Assembly (NCBI RefSeq): GCF_900090195.1 | Contig: NZ_LT607803.1 | Span: 3,684,229-3,748,228, forward strand | Length of the DNA stretch: 64,000 nucleotides | Direction of reading: 5' to 3' | Origin: Variovorax sp. HW608 | GTDB taxonomy: Bacteria; Pseudomonadota; Gammaproteobacteria; Burkholderiales; Burkholderiaceae_C | Part shown: positions 38,673-44,514 of the stretch, one piece after another | Position numbering within the stretch: the stretch's first letter is position 1 | Layout of the letters: each line of letters starts with the position of its first letter | Translations under genes and position numbers: made by a program | The notes under the pieces: model-generated | What the model saw: only the letters and a program-made list of their open reading frames with translations | Database searches by the model: none | Told to the model about the DNA's origin: nothing

Positions 38673-39728
38673 ATGACCATCCAGACCGACGATTTCGCCC
38701 CGGCGCCGCAACGCGTGGTGTCCGCCGCGCCCGCCTCGCCCAATGAAGAAGCGATCGAACGCGCGCTGCGTCCCAAGCTGCTCGACGAATACGTCGGCCA
38801 GGCGAAGGTGCGCGAACAGCTCGAAATCTTTATCGGTGCGGCACGCCACCGGAAGGAAGCGCTGGACCATGTGCTGCTCTTCGGTCCGCCGGGGCTCGGC
38901 AAGACCACGCTGTCGCACATCATCGCGGCCGAGCTCGGCGTCAACCTGCGGCAGACCTCCGGCCCGGTGCTCGAAAAACCCAAGGACCTCGCGGCGCTGC
39001 TCACCAATCTCGAGCGCAACGACGTGCTCTTCATCGACGAGATCCATCGCCTCTCGCCGGTGGTCGAGGAAATCCTCTACCCCGCGCTGGAGGACTACCA
39101 GATCGACATCATGATCGGCGAAGGCCCCGCGGCGCGCAGCATCAAGCTCGACCTGCAGCCTTTCACGCTCGTCGGCGCGACCACCCGCGCCGGCATGCTG
39201 ACCAATCCGCTGCGCGATCGCTTCGGCATCGTCGCGCGGCTCGAGTTCTATACGGCGGAGGAACTGGCGCGCATCGTCCATCGCAGCGCGGGCCTGCTCG
39301 GGGTGCCGGCGGACGAGGCCGGCGGCCTGGAGATCGCGCGCCGTTCGCGTGGCACGCCGCGCATCGCGAATCGCCTGCTGCGCCGGGTGCGCGACTATGC
39401 GCAGGTCAAGAGCGACGGCCGCATCACGGCCGACGTCGCGCACAAGGCGCTGGCGATGCTCGACGTCGATCCGCAGGGCTTCGACCTGATGGACCGCAAG
39501 CTGCTCGAAGCCGTCATCCACCGCTTCGACGGCGGCCCGGTCGGGCTCGACAACATCGCCGCGAGCATCGGCGAGGAGGCCGGCACGATCGAGGACGTGA
39601 TCGAGCCCTATCTGATCCAGCAGGGCTACCTGCAGCGCACGCCGCGCGGGCGCATCGCGACCCTCGCCGCGTACCGGCATCTCGGCGTCGCCGCGCCTCA
39701 GCGCGAGGGCGACATGTTCGGAAGCTGA
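38673..39728 (+). CDS. ruvB: Holliday junction branch migration ATPase RuvB
   Basis: 351 residues. [20 protein letters not shown] is Walker [21 protein letters not shown]alker B, and [20 protein letters not shown] sensor I with the arginine finger. The C-terminal winged helix reads [20 protein letters not shown]. It drives branch migration with RuvA. Its 3' end overlaps the convergent fusion gene by 31 bp. Confidence 0.97.
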
Positions 39729-41464
39729 TCGGCCGCCGCTTCGCCGGCCGGCCGCACATGGGCCGCGATCAGCCACTGCGCCGCGTAGTAGGTCGCCAGC
39801 ACCCACAGCGACGCCACCGGCAGCGTCAGGACGAAGCGGTTGGTCGCCAGCAGCGAATCGCTCAGCATGAAGAAAGAGGCGCCGACCGCGACCTTGAGCG
39901 ATGCCCGATCGCCCGCGACCGCGGCGCGCCCGATGGCCTGCGCCGCCATGCAGGCGATCACCACCACGTAGAGACCGACCGGAATGCGCAGGCCGCCCGG
40001 CAGCCCGCCCCACCACAGGAAGGCATACATGACCGCGCCGATGCCGAGCGTCGCGGCGAGGGCATTCGGCCGCGGAAACAGCCCGACGCCTTGCGCGAAC
40101 AGCCCGATGTAGGCCAGGTGGGCGAGCAGGAAGCACACGAGCCCCGGCACGAAGAACTGCGGCCACATCAGCAGCACGTCGCCGGCCAGCGAGGCGACGA
40201 GGCCGGCGATCAGCAGCCGCGCGAAGCGTCCCGGCACCTCGGGCGCGCGATGGCGCGTCAGCGCAAAGCCGATGAGCACCGCGAGCGCGAGCGGCTTGAA
40301 CACCCCATGAAGCTGCCCGATGCCCAGCGCGCCGCTGGCCGTCGCCAGCGCCGCCGCGTCGATGAAGAGGACTTCCGCCACCGTCAGCCGACCCTGCAGC
40401 GCCGCGCCGGTCGCCCACAGCCCCGCGGTCAGCGCCGCGAGCCACACCAGCGAAGTGGCCAAAGGCAGCGTGTCCGAGAACCACAGGAAGGCGATGGCGC
40501 CCGCCAGCAGCAGGGCGAACTGCGCGGCGGCGAAAGCCCGTACGCTGCCGGACGCCTGCGGCTCGTAGCGCTGCACCTGACGGATGTCGAAGGCCGGCTT
40601 GGGGTCGATCGCCGCCACATCCGCCGGCCGCCAGCCGGGCGGCTTGATCCACACGCGCAGCTTGTCGCTCCAGCGGCGGGTGCGCCAGCTGTCGCGCGCG
40701 AGGGCCCAGTACACCTCGGCATTGGCCCAGATCGGGTCCCAGCTGCGCAGCGGGCTGCGCGTGCCGTAGACGCAGGGCTCGTCTTCTTCCTTGAAAGTGC
40801 CGAAGAGCCGGTCCCACACGATGAGGACCCCGCCGTAGTTGCGATCGATGTAGCGGTCGTTGACCGCGTGGTGCACGCGGTGGTTCGACGGCGAACAGAA
40901 CCAGCGGTCGAACCAGCCGAGCCGGCCGACCTGCTCGGTGTGCACCCAGAACTGGTAGAGCAGGTCGACGAGCGCGACCACGCCGAAGACCAGCGGCGGC
41001 ACGCCCGCGATCGCCATCGGCAGGTAGAAGATCCAGCCGAGCAGCGCACCGCTCGAGGTCTGCCGCAGCGCGGTCGACAGGTTGTAGTGCTGGCTCTGGT
41101 GATGCACCACGTGCGCGGCCCACAGCACCGCACTCTCGTGACCGAAGCGGTGCAGCCAGTAGTAGCAGAGGTCGTAGAAGACCAGCGCCAGCAGCCAGCC
41201 GTGCCACTGCGTCCAGAAATGTTCGTTCGGGAACAGGGCGAACGCCGACCAGCAGGCGGTGTAGAGGCCGATGCGCAGCAGCCCGGTGAGGACTGCGCTG
41301 ATCTGGCTCAGGATGCCGAGGCCGAGGCTGTTGATCGTGTCGGGCAGGCGGTAGGTGTCATGGCCGGTCCCGAGCTTCGCGCGCCGGCGGCCGACGAGGA
41401 ATTCGATCCCGATCAGCAGGAAGAAGACAGGCGTTGCGAGGACGATGATCTGGCCGGGGCGCAT
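39698..41464 (-). CDS. Fusion protein: fatty-acid hydroxylase/alkylglycerol-monooxygenase-like domain plus lysoplasmalogenase (YhhN/TMEM86) domain
   Basis: 588 residues from ATG 41464, many transmembrane helices. Residues about 40-230 form a di-iron hydroxylase: HRFGH (105-109), HVVHH (118-122) and HRVHH (195-199) supply the histidines. [20 protein letters not shown] then [17 protein letters not shown] resembles the vertebrate alkylglycerol monooxygenase (TMEM195) more than classical sterol desaturases. Residues about 385-580 are a YhhN domain ([20 protein letters not shown] and [20 protein letters not shown]), as in lysoplasmalogenases that cleave vinyl-ether bonds. Both halves would act on ether lipids in the membrane; that is inference. 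It diverges from the PlcP-like gene. Confidence 0.8.
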
Positions 41465-41496
41465 GAGGTCGATTGTCCCGGCCCGCGCTCTTGTCG

Positions 41497-41514
41497 CCGT
41501 CACTGCAGCGTCAT
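41497..41514 (+). promoter_or_regulatory. Pho-box-like direct repeat nearer the fusion gene
   Basis: Two 7-mers, ccgtcac and gcgtcat, are separated by 4 bp, so their GTCA cores (41499 and 41510) are 11 bp apart, the PhoB geometry. They sit 33-50 bp upstream of the minus-strand fusion gene, in plus-strand orientation. Confidence 0.45.
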
Positions 41515-41555
41515 GGTTTGCCCCAGGGCGGCGCCCCGGCGGCGGTGTCGTCGGC

Positions 41556-41584
41556 GCGTCATCGTGCTGCCATGACCCCGTCAT
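41556..41584 (+). promoter_or_regulatory. Triple Pho-box-like repeat upstream of the PlcP-like gene
   Basis: gcgtcat-cgtg-ctgccat-gacc-ccgtcat: three 7-mers at exact 11-bp steps (GTCAT at 41558, GCCAT at 41569, GTCAT at 41580), ending 24 bp before the ATG at 41609. PhoB binds tandem 7-bp repeats close to CTGTCAT separated by 4 bp. The match is by eye; no score was computed and no clear -10 box is seen. Confidence 0.55.
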
Positions 41585-41608
41585 GCGCGGCTGCGAACGT
41601 GCTGGGCC

Positions 41609-42487
41609 ATGCAAAGAGATGACGCTTTTCTTCGCGCATGGAGCGAAAGGGTGCCGCAGATCCCGGAGGCGGAGGAGGCCGATTTCACGCGGCCGGTGCA
41701 GCGCTTTCGCGCCCTGTGGATCTCGGACCTGCACCTGGGCACGCCCGGCTGCCAGGCGCGGATGCTGCTCGACTTCCTCAAGCACACCGAGTGCGAGACG
41801 CTGTTCCTGGTCGGCGACATCATCGACGGCTGGCAGCTCAAGCGCCATTGGTACTGGCCGCAGGCGCACAACGACGTGATCCAGAAGCTGCTTCGCAAGG
41901 CGCGCAAGGGCTCGCGGGTGATCTTCATCCCGGGCAACCACGACGAGTTCGCGCGCAAGTACCTCAACCACAACTTCGGCGGCATCGACGTCGCCGATGA
42001 GTGGATCCACGAGACCGCCGACGGCCGCAAGCTCTGGATCATGCACGGCGACCTGTTCGACGGCGTGATCCAGTGCGCCAAGTGGCTGGCGCATGTCGGC
42101 GACTCGCTCTACGAATTCACCCTCAAGCTCAACCGCCACCTCAATTCGATGCGGGCGCGGATGGGCTTGCCGTACTGGTCGCTGTCCAAGTACCTCAAGC
42201 TGAAGGTCAAGCGCGCCGTCAGCTATGTCGGCGATTTCGAGAACGCGGTGGCCCGCGAAGCACGCCGGCGCGGCGTGCACGGCGTGGTGTGCGGCCACAT
42301 CCATCACGCCGAACTGCGCGACATCGACGGCATCCTGTACGCCAACGATGGCGACTGGGTCGAGAGCCTGACCGCGCTCGCCGAGCATGCGGACGGAAGG
42401 CTGGAGATCCTGCACTGGGCCGATCACATGCCGGTGGCGACGCAGGCCGGGCGTGCGTCCTCGCGGCGGGAGCCGGTGCACGCATGA
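41609..42487 (+). CDS. PlcP-like metallophosphoesterase (LpxH/UDP-diacylglucosamine-diphosphatase family)
   Basis: 292 residues. The calcineurin-like motifs are complete: LWISDLHLG near 39, LVGDIIDGWQLKRHWYWPQ near 69, IPGNHDEFARKYL near 109, IMHGDLFDGVIQ near 146 and GVVCGHIHHAELRD near 229. The WQLKRHWYWPQAHNDVIQKL stretch and YWSLSKYLKLKVK match what I know of PlcP, a cytoplasmic phospholipase C that rhizobia and marine bacteria use to degrade phospholipids under phosphate starvation. Such genes are often annotated as LpxH-like. Pho-box-like repeats precede it and a diacylglycerol-type glycosyltransferase follows. No strong ribosome-binding site, so the start may be wrong by some codons. 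Confidence 0.8.
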   Translation: MQRDDAFLRAWSERVPQIPEAEEADFTRPVQRFRALWISDLHLGTPGCQARMLLDFLKHTECETLFLVGDIIDGWQLKRHWYWPQAHNDVIQKLLRKARKGSRVIFIPGNHDEFARKYLNHNFGGIDVADEWIHETADGRKLWIMHGDLFDGVIQCAKWLAHVGDSLYEFTLKLNRHLNSMRARMGLPYWSLSKYLKLKVKRAVSYVGDFENAVAREARRRGVHGVVCGHIHHAELRDIDGILYANDGDWVESLTALAEHADGRLEILHWADHMPVATQAGRASSRREPVHA

Positions 42488-42605
42488 GCCGCCCGGCCGT
42501 TCCGAATGCGAATCCCGAAGCGCTGCTGCGCGAGGGTAGTCCAGTGAGTCGCCGGGCCGCCCCAAGACGAATACCGCAGCGCTGCTGCGCGGAGGTTGGG
42601 CAATG
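42484..42605 (+). repeat. Two tandem units of an intercistronic repeat
   Basis: Unit 1 (about 42485-42543) begins tgagccgcccggccgttccg and ends gcgagggtagtccag. Unit 2 (about 42544-42605) begins tgagtcgccgggccgcccca and ends gcggaggttgggcaatgag. The first unit contains the stop codon of the PlcP-like gene. The second provides the ggagg ribosome-binding site and ATG of the glycosyltransferase. A related unit follows dtd at 33607. Confidence 0.75.
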
Positions 42606-43772
42606 AGGGCTGGGCGTACCGTCGACCTCGTCTACTTCAACGCCGGCGGCGGCCACCGCGCCTCCGCGCTGGCGCTCGAATCGGCGATCCAGCGCGCCGG
42701 TCTGCCGTGGACGGTGCGGCTGGTCAACCTGCGCGAAGTGCTCGACCCCAAGGACGGCTTCCGCCGCCTGACCGGCATGGACCCGGAGGATGTCTACAAC
42801 AAGCGCTTGGCGCGCGGATGGACGCTCGGCCTCGCACAGGAACTCAAGCTGCTGCAGGGAATGATCCGCTGGTGCCACGCCACGCTGGTGCGGCAGTTGC
42901 AGCAGCACTGGCTGGCCACCGAGCCGGACATGGTCGTGTCCCTGATCCCGAACTTCAACCGCGCGCTCTGCGAGGCGCTGTCGTCGACCTTGCCGGGCGT
43001 GCCCTATGTGACGGTCCTGACCGACCTCGCCGACCATCCGCCGAATTTCTGGATCGAGGAAGGCCTGGACCAGGACCTGGTCTGCGGCTCGGCCAAGGCG
43101 GTGGCGCAGGCGCTCGCCGCCGGCCATGCACCGCAGCGGGTCCACGCCAGCTCCGGAATGATCATCCGCGCGTCCTTCTACGACGAGCGTTCGGTCGACC
43201 GCAAGGCGGAGCGCGCGCGCCTGGGGCTCGACCCGGATCGGCCGACCGGCATCGTGCTCTTCGGCGGTCAGGGCTCGAAGGCGATGCTCGGCATCGCGCG
43301 CAGCCTGCCCGATACGCAGCTCATCCTGGCCTGCGGCCACAACGCGAAGCTCGCCGACGCCCTGCGCGAGCTGCCTGCGCGCGCGCCGCGGCTGGTGCTG
43401 GGCTTCACGCCCGACGTCCCCCGCTACATGGCGCTGGCCGATTTCTTCATCGGCAAGCCCGGTCCCGGCAGCCTGAGCGAGGCGGTCCACATGGGCCTGC
43501 CGGTGATCGTGGTCCGCAACCGCTGGACGCTGCCTCAGGAGCGCTACAACACCCAGTGGATCCGGGAGCACGGCCTGGGCCTGGTGTGCCGCAGCTTTGC
43601 CCGGGTGGACGAGGCGGCCGCCGAGCTCATCCGGCATCTGGATCGCTACCAGGCGGCGACGCGCAAGGTGCAGAACCGGGCGGTGTTCGAACTGCCCGTC
43701 ATGCTCGAAGGGATCCTGTCGCGCGCCGAGCGGCCGGTGTCGGGCTCGACCGTGGCTCCGATCGATTCGTAG
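42603..43772 (+). CDS. MGDG-synthase/UgtP-like glycosyltransferase
   Basis: 389 residues of the GT28 type. DLVYFNAGGGHRASALALES is the N-terminal MGDG_synth motif and VTVLTDLADHPPNFWIEEGL its second block. IVLFGGQGSKAMLGIARSLP and FFIGKPGPGSLSEAVHMGLP form the nucleotide-sugar-binding C-terminal domain. Relatives transfer a hexose to diacylglycerol. Its start and ribosome-binding site come from the repeat just upstream, and it is almost certainly co-transcribed with the PlcP-like phosphoesterase, which would supply diacylglycerol. Sugar donor unknown. Confidence 0.83.
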   Translation: MRAGRTVDLVYFNAGGGHRASALALESAIQRAGLPWTVRLVNLREVLDPKDGFRRLTGMDPEDVYNKRLARGWTLGLAQELKLLQGMIRWCHATLVRQLQQHWLATEPDMVVSLIPNFNRALCEALSSTLPGVPYVTVLTDLADHPPNFWIEEGLDQDLVCGSAKAVAQALAAGHAPQRVHASSGMIIRASFYDERSVDRKAERARLGLDPDRPTGIVLFGGQGSKAMLGIARSLPDTQLILACGHNAKLADALRELPARAPRLVLGFTPDVPRYMALADFFIGKPGPGSLSEAVHMGLPVIVVRNRWTLPQERYNTQWIREHGLGLVCRSFARVDEAAAELIRHLDRYQAATRKVQNRAVFELPVMLEGILSRAERPVSGSTVAPIDS

Positions 43773-43860
43773 GCTATAGAGTCGATCTTTGCGACGGCCG
43801 CCGCCGCGGCGTGCCGCGCCAGCCTCGGCGCCGGAACTTGCCCGCGGGCGCGTCGATCCG

Positions 43861-44514
43861 ATGGCCATGCGCCCAACCAACCCACCTCCCCGTTTCCGCT
43901 TGCAGCGCCGCGCAGTGGCGGCCGCACTGATCGGCATGCCGGCCCTGTGGCTCGGCGCGCGGGCCCAGACACCGCCGACGCGGCGGATGCTGACGCCGGC
44001 ACAGACCGAAGGCCCGTTCTACCCCGTCGAGATCCCGAAGGACTCGGACTACGACCTGCTGCGCAACGGGGACCGCCCGCCTTACGCGACCGGGCACCCG
44101 GCCTGGGTCGAAGGCACCGTGACCGACATCGCAGGACGGCCGGTCGCTGGCGCGCAGGTCGAGATCTGGCAGTGCGACGAAGCGGGGCACTATCACCATC
44201 CGGGCGACGGCAATCGGGCGGATGCGGCGTTCCAGGGTTTCGGCCGCGTGACGGTCGGGGCCGACGGCCGCTACCGCTTCCATACGATCCGGCCTGTTCC
44301 GTACAGCGGCCGCACGGCGCACATCCACGTGAAAGTGAAGCTCGACCGGCGCGAGCTCCTCACGACGCAGCTCTACGTGGCGGGCGATCCCGGCAACGCG
44401 CGCGACGGGATATGGCGCAGCCTCGACGAGAGCGCCCGTGCCGCGGTGACTGTGCCGTTCACACCCGGGCCGGACGGCCTCCAGGCGCGTTTCCCGATCA
44501 TCGTCGAGGCCTGA
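43861..44514 (+). CDS. Intradiol ring-cleavage dioxygenase-like protein, exported
   Basis: 217 residues from ATG 43861. RLQRRAVAAALIGMPALWLG is a twin-arginine-like signal. The mature part follows the protocatechuate 3,4-dioxygenase fold: TPAQTEGPFYPVEIPKDSDY, VEGTVTDIAGRPVAGAQVEI, WQCDEAGHYHHPGD, RYRFHTIRPVPYSGRTAHIH. The two iron histidines and a candidate tyrosine are visible. Such exported members are poorly characterised and need not be true catechol enzymes. No other aromatic-degradation genes are near. A second in-frame start at 43789 is less likely. Confidence 0.75.
   Translation: MAMRPTNPPPRFRLQRRAVAAALIGMPALWLGARAQTPPTRRMLTPAQTEGPFYPVEIPKDSDYDLLRNGDRPPYATGHPAWVEGTVTDIAGRPVAGAQVEIWQCDEAGHYHHPGDGNRADAAFQGFGRVTVGADGRYRFHTIRPVPYSGRTAHIHVKVKLDRRELLTTQLYVAGDPGNARDGIWRSLDESARAAVTVPFTPGPDGLQARFPIIVEA

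Follow-up and report, generated by a model that had tools for sequence, protein, structure and literature searches.

A putative PhoB-controlled plcP–glycosyltransferase operon beside a divergent AGMO-like/lysoplasmalogenase fusion gene in Variovorax sp. HW608

The stretch of DNA analysed here (64,000 nucleotides; contig NZ_LT607803.1, positions 3,684,229 to 3,748,228; hereafter the window) comes from Variovorax sp. HW608, whose genome of 7.73 Mb lies on a single contig. It contains a plcP-like phosphoesterase gene, a glycosyltransferase gene downstream of it and, on the other strand, a divergent gene in which an alkylglycerol monooxygenase (AGMO)-like domain is fused to a YhhN lysoplasmalogenase domain. 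Open reading frames (ORFs) and Pfam matches confirmed these three neighbours as an original prediction, made from the sequence alone, had described them (Table 1). We consider it likely that plcP and the glycosyltransferase gene form a PhoB-controlled operon that replaces phospholipid by glycolipid, and that the fusion gene stands apart from it. Positions are those of the window unless another genome or locus is named.

Table 1 Features at the plcP–glycosyltransferase locus (window positions)
Feature	Position	Strand	Details
ruvB	38673-39728	plus	
AGMO-like/lysoplasmalogenase fusion gene	39698-41464	minus	588 aa; divergent to plcP
FA_hydroxylase (PF04116) domain	40796-41197	minus	residues 90-223 of fusion; 104.9 bits
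YhhN (PF07947) lysoplasmalogenase domain	39761-40303	minus	fusion residues 388-568; 154 bits (cut-off 25.6)
Extra half-site pair	41499-41514	plus	GTCAC 41499, GTCAT 41510; near fusion gene start
Pho-box array, four half-sites	41547-41584	plus	upstream of plcP
plcP-like gene, calcineurin-like phosphoesterase	41609-42487	plus	292 aa; PF00149 48.8 bits
40-codon mini-ORF	42484-42606	plus	imperfect tandem duplication between plcP and glycosyltransferase
MGDG-synthase-like glycosyltransferase, GT28 type	42603-43772	plus	389 aa; PF04101 (Glyco_tran_28_C) 28.9 bits
Intradiol-dioxygenase-like gene	43789-44514		PF00775 match; directly after glycosyltransferase

The region between the divergent genes carries four plus-strand half-sites at 11-bp steps, GTCGT (41547), GTCAT (41558), GCCAT (41569) and GTCAT (41580), at offsets of -62, -51, -40 and -29 from the plcP ATG. 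We scanned 55 distinct sequences upstream of plcP for triple sites allowing up to 3 mismatches: 42 have one oriented towards plcP and 0 have one in the opposite direction, compared with 5 of 1,100 shuffles; the 55 regions are related sequences and so do not count as independent cases. Our conservation set comprised 59 distinct regions in which plcP aligned from its first residue, 33 of them less than 80% identical to one another. Across these 33 non-redundant regions, half-site columns held 1.32 bits and other columns 0.47 bits. The array was seen both in the 13 non-redundant regions whose locus includes the fusion and in the 20 whose locus does not. Conserved tandem GTCAT-like half-sites at 11-bp steps thus stand upstream of plcP, as is characteristic of the Pho regulon, and their fixed position and orientation bear out the PhoB-box-like elements proposed originally. 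These observations suggest that phosphate starvation probably turns on the plcP–glycosyltransferase operon. Only 24 nt (41585-41608) lie between the end of the last half-site and the plcP ATG, so the predicted plcP transcript may have almost no leader. The sequence surrounding this ATG, CCATGCAACGCGA, is kept in many relatives.

As a bare genome-wide count, the Pho-box motif is not enriched. The host genome holds 8 triple sites at up to 2 mismatches and 3 at up to 1 mismatch, and a first-order Markov model of the window predicts 8.1 and 1.2, respectively. The 8 sites had looked impressive against a backward-pattern control, which gave 0 hits, but that control is not a fair one because its base steps differ from those of the motif, and with 8.1 sites expected by simulation we dropped the count as evidence. 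When the window was shuffled, 7 of 100 shuffles attained the 3 matches observed at up to 3 mismatches. The weight therefore rests on the fixed position of the array and its conservation.

The three genomic sites with at most one mismatch lie at plcP, at ppk and at a further locus (L175); the eight with at most two comprise two overlapping sites at plcP, the one at ppk, the one-mismatch site at L175 and two-mismatch sites at L176, L177, L179 and L180. The site at ppk belongs to a strong Pho-box array upstream of the polyphosphate kinase gene and directed at it (L174; genome positions 6260944-6260970, minus strand). At another genomic locus (L181; 6255489-6256406 plus upstream sequence), pstS lies beside phoB and shares an intergenic region with a divergent ppx-like gene, each of the two having a half-site pair in its own direction; a PhoB scoring above its cut-off is encoded near pstS. 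Taking five pstS-like genes as controls, we found a start-proximal pair with at most 1 mismatch only at the pstS beside phoB. Pairs at two of the others (L182 and L183) lie away from the start, and the remaining two (L184 and L185) have none.

We examined gene order in 61 genomes of the same genus (own included), counting it from coordinates. A plcP ortholog was found in 58 of them, one cut by a contig end, and the glycosyltransferase in 24. In all 24 genomes with the glycosyltransferase, it lies immediately 3' of plcP on the same strand, so gene order, proposed as a check on the prediction, is conserved for this pair. At 12 Variovorax loci that lack the glycosyltransferase, none of the frames following plcP matched the enzyme. 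Across a wider sample of the family, 48 of 299 genomes (own included) encode the glycosyltransferase. At 29 fetched loci from other genera (own excluded), plcP lies within 1.5 kb in 12, with plcP first on the same strand in 5, the glycosyltransferase first in 4 and the genes convergent in 3. The start codon of the glycosyltransferase overlaps the plcP stop codon in all seven relatives whose junctions were read. In the HW608 strain, the junction holds an imperfect tandem duplication, each copy about 60 bp long. It leaves a mini-ORF of 40 codons that overlaps the plcP stop at its start and the glycosyltransferase start at its stop; both duplication and mini-ORF are absent from the seven relatives. 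We judge it probable that plcP and the glycosyltransferase gene make up a translationally coupled operon, as part of the PhoB-driven lipid replacement proposed here.

The original prediction called the first product of this operon a PlcP-like metallophosphoesterase and asked for a phylogeny against LpxH. The protein fails two LpxH equivalog models, with 34.3 bits (cut-off 190.35) and 40.5 bits (cut-off 134), and a separate LpxH is encoded above cut-off elsewhere in the host genome (200.5 bits). Each of ten further genomes likewise encodes a separate LpxH-type protein, 8 of them above cut-off (range 185-349 bits). In 9 of these genomes the LpxH model gave a second match, at 26-47 bits, which is a homolog of the window phosphoesterase. 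In a tree of 19 PlcP-like and 11 LpxH rows, a single 100/100 branch split the two sets and no grouping of the window protein with LpxH was seen; the program issued a long-branch warning (for L230 among the PlcP rows and also inside LpxH), and the tree was built without characterised PlcP sequences, the window protein grouping with Pseudomonas homologs. A tie to characterised PlcP is provided by the homologs of four other Pseudomonas genomes, which are 54-56% identical to the window protein, together with the published account of PA3219 (PMC8528852; this and the other papers cited by PMC number are used from partial texts). By sequence, the putative phosphoesterase is thus of the PlcP type and distinct from LpxH. 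Among the best 120 of 7999 scored relatives, those with names are called UDP-2,3-diacylglucosamine diphosphatase or LpxH; if our assignment is true, the public name UDP-2,3-diacylglucosamine diphosphatase is probably wrong for these relatives.

The second product matches glycosyltransferases that act on diacylglycerol. Its nearest solved relative by sequence is Arabidopsis MGD1 (E value 4e-23), followed by a processive diacylglycerol beta-glucosyltransferase (E value 3e-14). A structural model of the protein (mean predicted local distance difference test score, pLDDT, 85.1) has MGD1 (4x1t) as its nearest structure, with template-modelling (TM) scores of 0.71/0.85. Equivalog models for diglucosyl-diacylglycerol synthase match it far below their cut-off (75.9 versus 500). 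It does not fall in the GT4 (Agt) class, since its Pfam match is Glyco_tran_28_C and its best solved relatives are of MGD1 type. Sequence and modelled fold together thus uphold the claim of a monogalactosyldiacylglycerol (MGDG)-synthase-like enzyme and identify the predicted glycosyltransferase as one of GT28 type.

The divergent fusion gene is a single open frame whose nearest named relatives, from Variovorax, are 92% identical. A genome scan yielded 80 related loci, of which 52 combine both parts in a single alignment, 7 have the parts adjacent in different frames, 1 holds a split fusion, 14 encode the AGMO-like part alone and 6 end too close to a contig edge to be classified. The unbroken frame here, together with these 52 loci, excludes an artefact. 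Where the parts are separate adjacent genes, YhhN comes first in L057, L060, L064 and L067 and the AGMO-like gene in L061, L062 and L065. The split fusion, from Variovorax (L047:8001-9736), is in two frame-shifted pieces 81 bp apart.

Both halves carry the residues of their families. Animal AGMO is reported to depend on nine histidines and six further residues (PMC7911779 and PMC3617469), and all 15 are present in the window protein, an alignment that needs one inserted residue between Q162 and H201. This signature discriminates weakly because 18 of 23 comparator proteins also carry all 15 residues and all 23 carry the nine histidines; the five comparators that fall short are at most 34% identical. 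The window protein has the glutamate next to the second histidine that is linked to tetrahydrobiopterin in AGMO, but only 17 of 25 aligned fusions share it and three distant comparators have it as well, so tetrahydrobiopterin would be no more than a candidate cofactor. In the C-terminal half, K390, G428, D429, H449, G528, S535, D536 and Y559 match the eight residues put forward for TMEM86A in both motif and spacing; one of those in TMEM86A (G81) was not needed in a published test (PMC11994398). All eight are invariant in the 25 fusions. With the PF04116 and PF07947 matches, these family residues substantiate the AGMO-like/lysoplasmalogenase fusion that had been predicted. Names given to relatives include alkylglycerol monooxygenase, used by JGI for several close relatives, and lysoplasmalogenase family protein (best 120 listed). 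Fold comparison matched no solved structure (best E value 0.38), and the model of the fusion is poor around the hydroxylase active site, with pLDDT below 50 at residues 121-138 and 191-212, so we draw nothing from that comparison.

Fusion of the two parts, together with their separate adjacency in both gene orders, points to a joint role. At its simplest, this role would be the release of fatty aldehyde from lyso ether lipids of both the alkyl and the alkenyl kind. The plasmalogen synthesis family PF10520 had no match in the HW608 genome and none in the control genomes either, which makes the absence uninformative. We also considered whether the tail of the AGMO family is a degraded YhhN domain, and dropped the idea on finding that single-domain relatives end or diverge in the alignment where the YhhN lysine lies.

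Whether the fusion belongs to the phosphate response is a separate matter. In the same-genus genomes that have both fusion parts, the fusion is divergent to plcP in 29 of 31, a count that includes two genomes (G007 and G029) where it lies in two frames. The original expectation of a conserved gene order therefore holds for fusion and plcP within Variovorax; outside Variovorax the arrangement was seen at no locus. Across the 80 scan loci, plcP adjoins the fusion in 9, all among the 11 loci titled Variovorax. At the other 69, ruvB lies inside the fetched stretch in 27, many stretches being short. Whole-genome searches of 20 genomes with a fusion or AGMO-like gene found plcP elsewhere in 16 and none in 4, one of which has only a weak LpxH-like match. 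Shuffles did as well as the real sequence at 72 regions upstream of fusion or AGMO-like genes that have no plcP beside them: with both strands considered, the best triple site stayed within 4 mismatches in 2 of 72, compared with 47 of 1,440 shuffles. In none of the 55 plcP upstream regions did a box with up to 3 mismatches face the side of the fusion. Because the boxes follow and face plcP and the fusion regions without plcP show no boxes above shuffles, we read the fusion gene as a neighbour of plcP that, judged by its promoter region, is probably not part of the phosphate response. The proposal of an ether-lipid gene in that response was accordingly not sustained. The fusion probably has its own history and became the neighbour of plcP within Variovorax.

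Two alternatives concern what the enzymes are. Were the phosphoesterase LpxH, acting in lipid A synthesis, the locus would have nothing to do with phosphate; the public names of its relatives and the weak matches to the LpxH models point that way. We regard this as extremely improbable, and rejected it, given the sub-cut-off scores, the additional LpxH above cut-off in the same genome, the LpxH-type proteins found besides the window homolog in all ten further genomes and the separation in the tree. For the fusion, the hydroxylase half could be a different lipid hydroxylase, for instance one for ornithine lipids (OlsE-like), in place of an ether-lipid monooxygenase. Its sole NCBIfam match is indeed OlsE, and both the low discrimination of the AGMO signature and the scattered occurrence of the pterin-linked glutamate leave room for such an enzyme. 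However, the match reaches 58 bits, far under the cut-off of 475, and all the AGMO-essential residues are present. Several genera also have the hydroxylase joined to a lysoplasmalogenase domain or encoded next to one, and JGI names several close relatives alkylglycerol monooxygenase, so that a hydroxylase of another kind seems rather unlikely to us.

The other alternatives concern regulation. It is doubtful, in our view, that the divergent promoter in Variovorax ties the ether-lipid-cleaving fusion to starvation at all, whether by co-induction or, in the clade of HW608, by repression through the extra sites. Under co-induction, all three genes would be one phosphate-starvation lipid module in which the boxes also induce the fusion and ether lipids are recycled with phospholipids. 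The divergent neighbourhood in 29 of 31 genomes, the single shared intergenic region and the extra half-sites close to the fusion start in this clade speak for such a module. It did not survive as the best reading and we hold it to be quite improbable, because the boxes face plcP and are unchanged where the fusion is absent from the locus, fusion and AGMO-like genes elsewhere are box-free, plcP stands beside the fusion at just 9 of 80 loci, and in three genomes of same-genus type (L215-L217) the fusion is separated from plcP and the glycosyltransferase. Under repression, PhoB on the extra half-sites would cover the start region of the fusion gene and lower its expression in low phosphate, giving plcP and the fusion opposite regulation. 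The extra pair is found 35-50 nt ahead of the fusion ATG, facing away from the fusion, and the triple site there is perfect in L004. This pair was seen only in HW608 and, at the same place, in three close relatives (L002-L004; triple site with 0-1 mismatches), a distribution for which shared descent suffices, and we think repression very improbable. If the fusion is nonetheless phosphate-tied, the cell would choose between phospholipid stripping and ether-lipid use.

We therefore favour a PhoB-controlled plcP–glycosyltransferase operon with a separate fusion gene. From the genes, their families and residues, the gene order and the conservation and direction of the boxes, we propose a mechanism in which the enzyme activities, the sugar, PhoB binding and the lack of induction of the fusion are predicted. 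In low phosphate, phosphorylated PhoB would bind the half-sites at 41547-41584 and drive transcription rightward. PlcP would then remove the phosphate headgroup of membrane phospholipid to give diacylglycerol, and the GT28 enzyme would move a sugar from a UDP-sugar to this diacylglycerol, yielding a glycosyl-diacylglycerol in place of the phospholipid. The fusion would act as a separate membrane enzyme, probably cleaving lyso ether lipids in two ways, by oxidative cleavage of alkyl ethers in its AGMO-like domain and by vinyl ether hydrolysis in its YhhN domain, and would probably not be activated by PhoB. Several observations weigh against this proposal. The glycosyltransferase is missing from 34 of the 58 same-genus genomes with plcP, and 17 of the 29 glycosyltransferase loci from other genera have no plcP inside 1.5 kb (contig ends cut some of these loci short). 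Some relatives have a weak array, with 4-6 mismatches in L088-L091 and L161, and the motif count and the composition of the PlcP tree, both described above, count on the same side. The fusion–plcP neighbourhood kept in 29 of 31 Variovorax genomes could also mean a tie.

A PlcP with a lipid glycosyltransferase and a Pho box is already established, going by the available parts of PMC8528852, PMC4796936 and PMC9239053. In Pseudomonas aeruginosa, PA3219-PA3218 comprises plcP followed by the lipid glycosyltransferase gene agt1, with a Pho box in front (PMC8528852), an arrangement like that of HW608. Unlike the window enzyme, which is MGD1/UgtP-like (GT28), Agt1 is an Agt homolog, 41% identical to Phaeobacter Agt (PMC8528852). 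In marine bacteria and methanotrophs, plcP is often the neighbour of a glycosyltransferase gene and has a PhoB site, and further kinds of partner glycosyltransferase are known there (PMC4796936 and PMC9239053). There the likeness lies in plcP adjoining a glycosyltransferase with a PhoB-type site, and the difference in Agt being a GT4-group enzyme (PMC9239053) and the window enzyme GT28. The excerpts of PMC4796936 and PMC9239053 do not mention Betaproteobacteria, and in the literature excerpts the partners of PlcP are Agt or other glycosyltransferases, a GT28 partner in betaproteobacteria not being mentioned; none was listed either by a literature search on PlcP in Burkholderia and Betaproteobacteria. 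The excerpts of one paper from a Variovorax literature search do not name plcP. The window glycosyltransferase shares its fold, a GGGHRAS loop and the C-terminal half with MGD1 (4wyi/4x1t) and the bacterial processive diacylglycerol glucosyltransferase (9wde), and differs in being only about 22% identical over the structural alignment. Neither of these two enzymes is known from a plcP operon. The locus probably represents a betaproteobacterial form of the PlcP–glycosyltransferase Pho operon in which a GT28 enzyme replaces the GT4 enzyme Agt. If this is true, phosphate-starvation lipid replacement extends to a betaproteobacterial genus that is common in soil and in association with plants, and there it uses a glycosyltransferase class unlike the usual Agt.

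The fusion enzyme is a more unusual object than the operon, and our literature search found nothing on a bacterial AGMO-like/lysoplasmalogenase fusion. Its first half resembles animal AGMO in the essential residues and the pterin-binding glutamate and differs in being fused to YhhN and in the variation of that glutamate among related fusions (PMC7911779 and PMC3617469). Its second half resembles the YhhN/TMEM86 lysoplasmalogenases in the eight proposed residues and differs in being the C-terminal half of a fusion (PMC11994398 and PMC9052158, in the parts available). The fusion and its unfused counterparts, neighbours in both orders, suggest a bacterial pairing of AGMO-like enzyme and lysoplasmalogenase for ether-lipid breakdown. 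At the edges of the locus, the intradiol-dioxygenase-like gene 3' of the glycosyltransferase was matched only in L002-L004 among the first 111 loci compared, and ruvB and the fusion gene converge, sharing 31 bp at their 3' ends (39698-39728).

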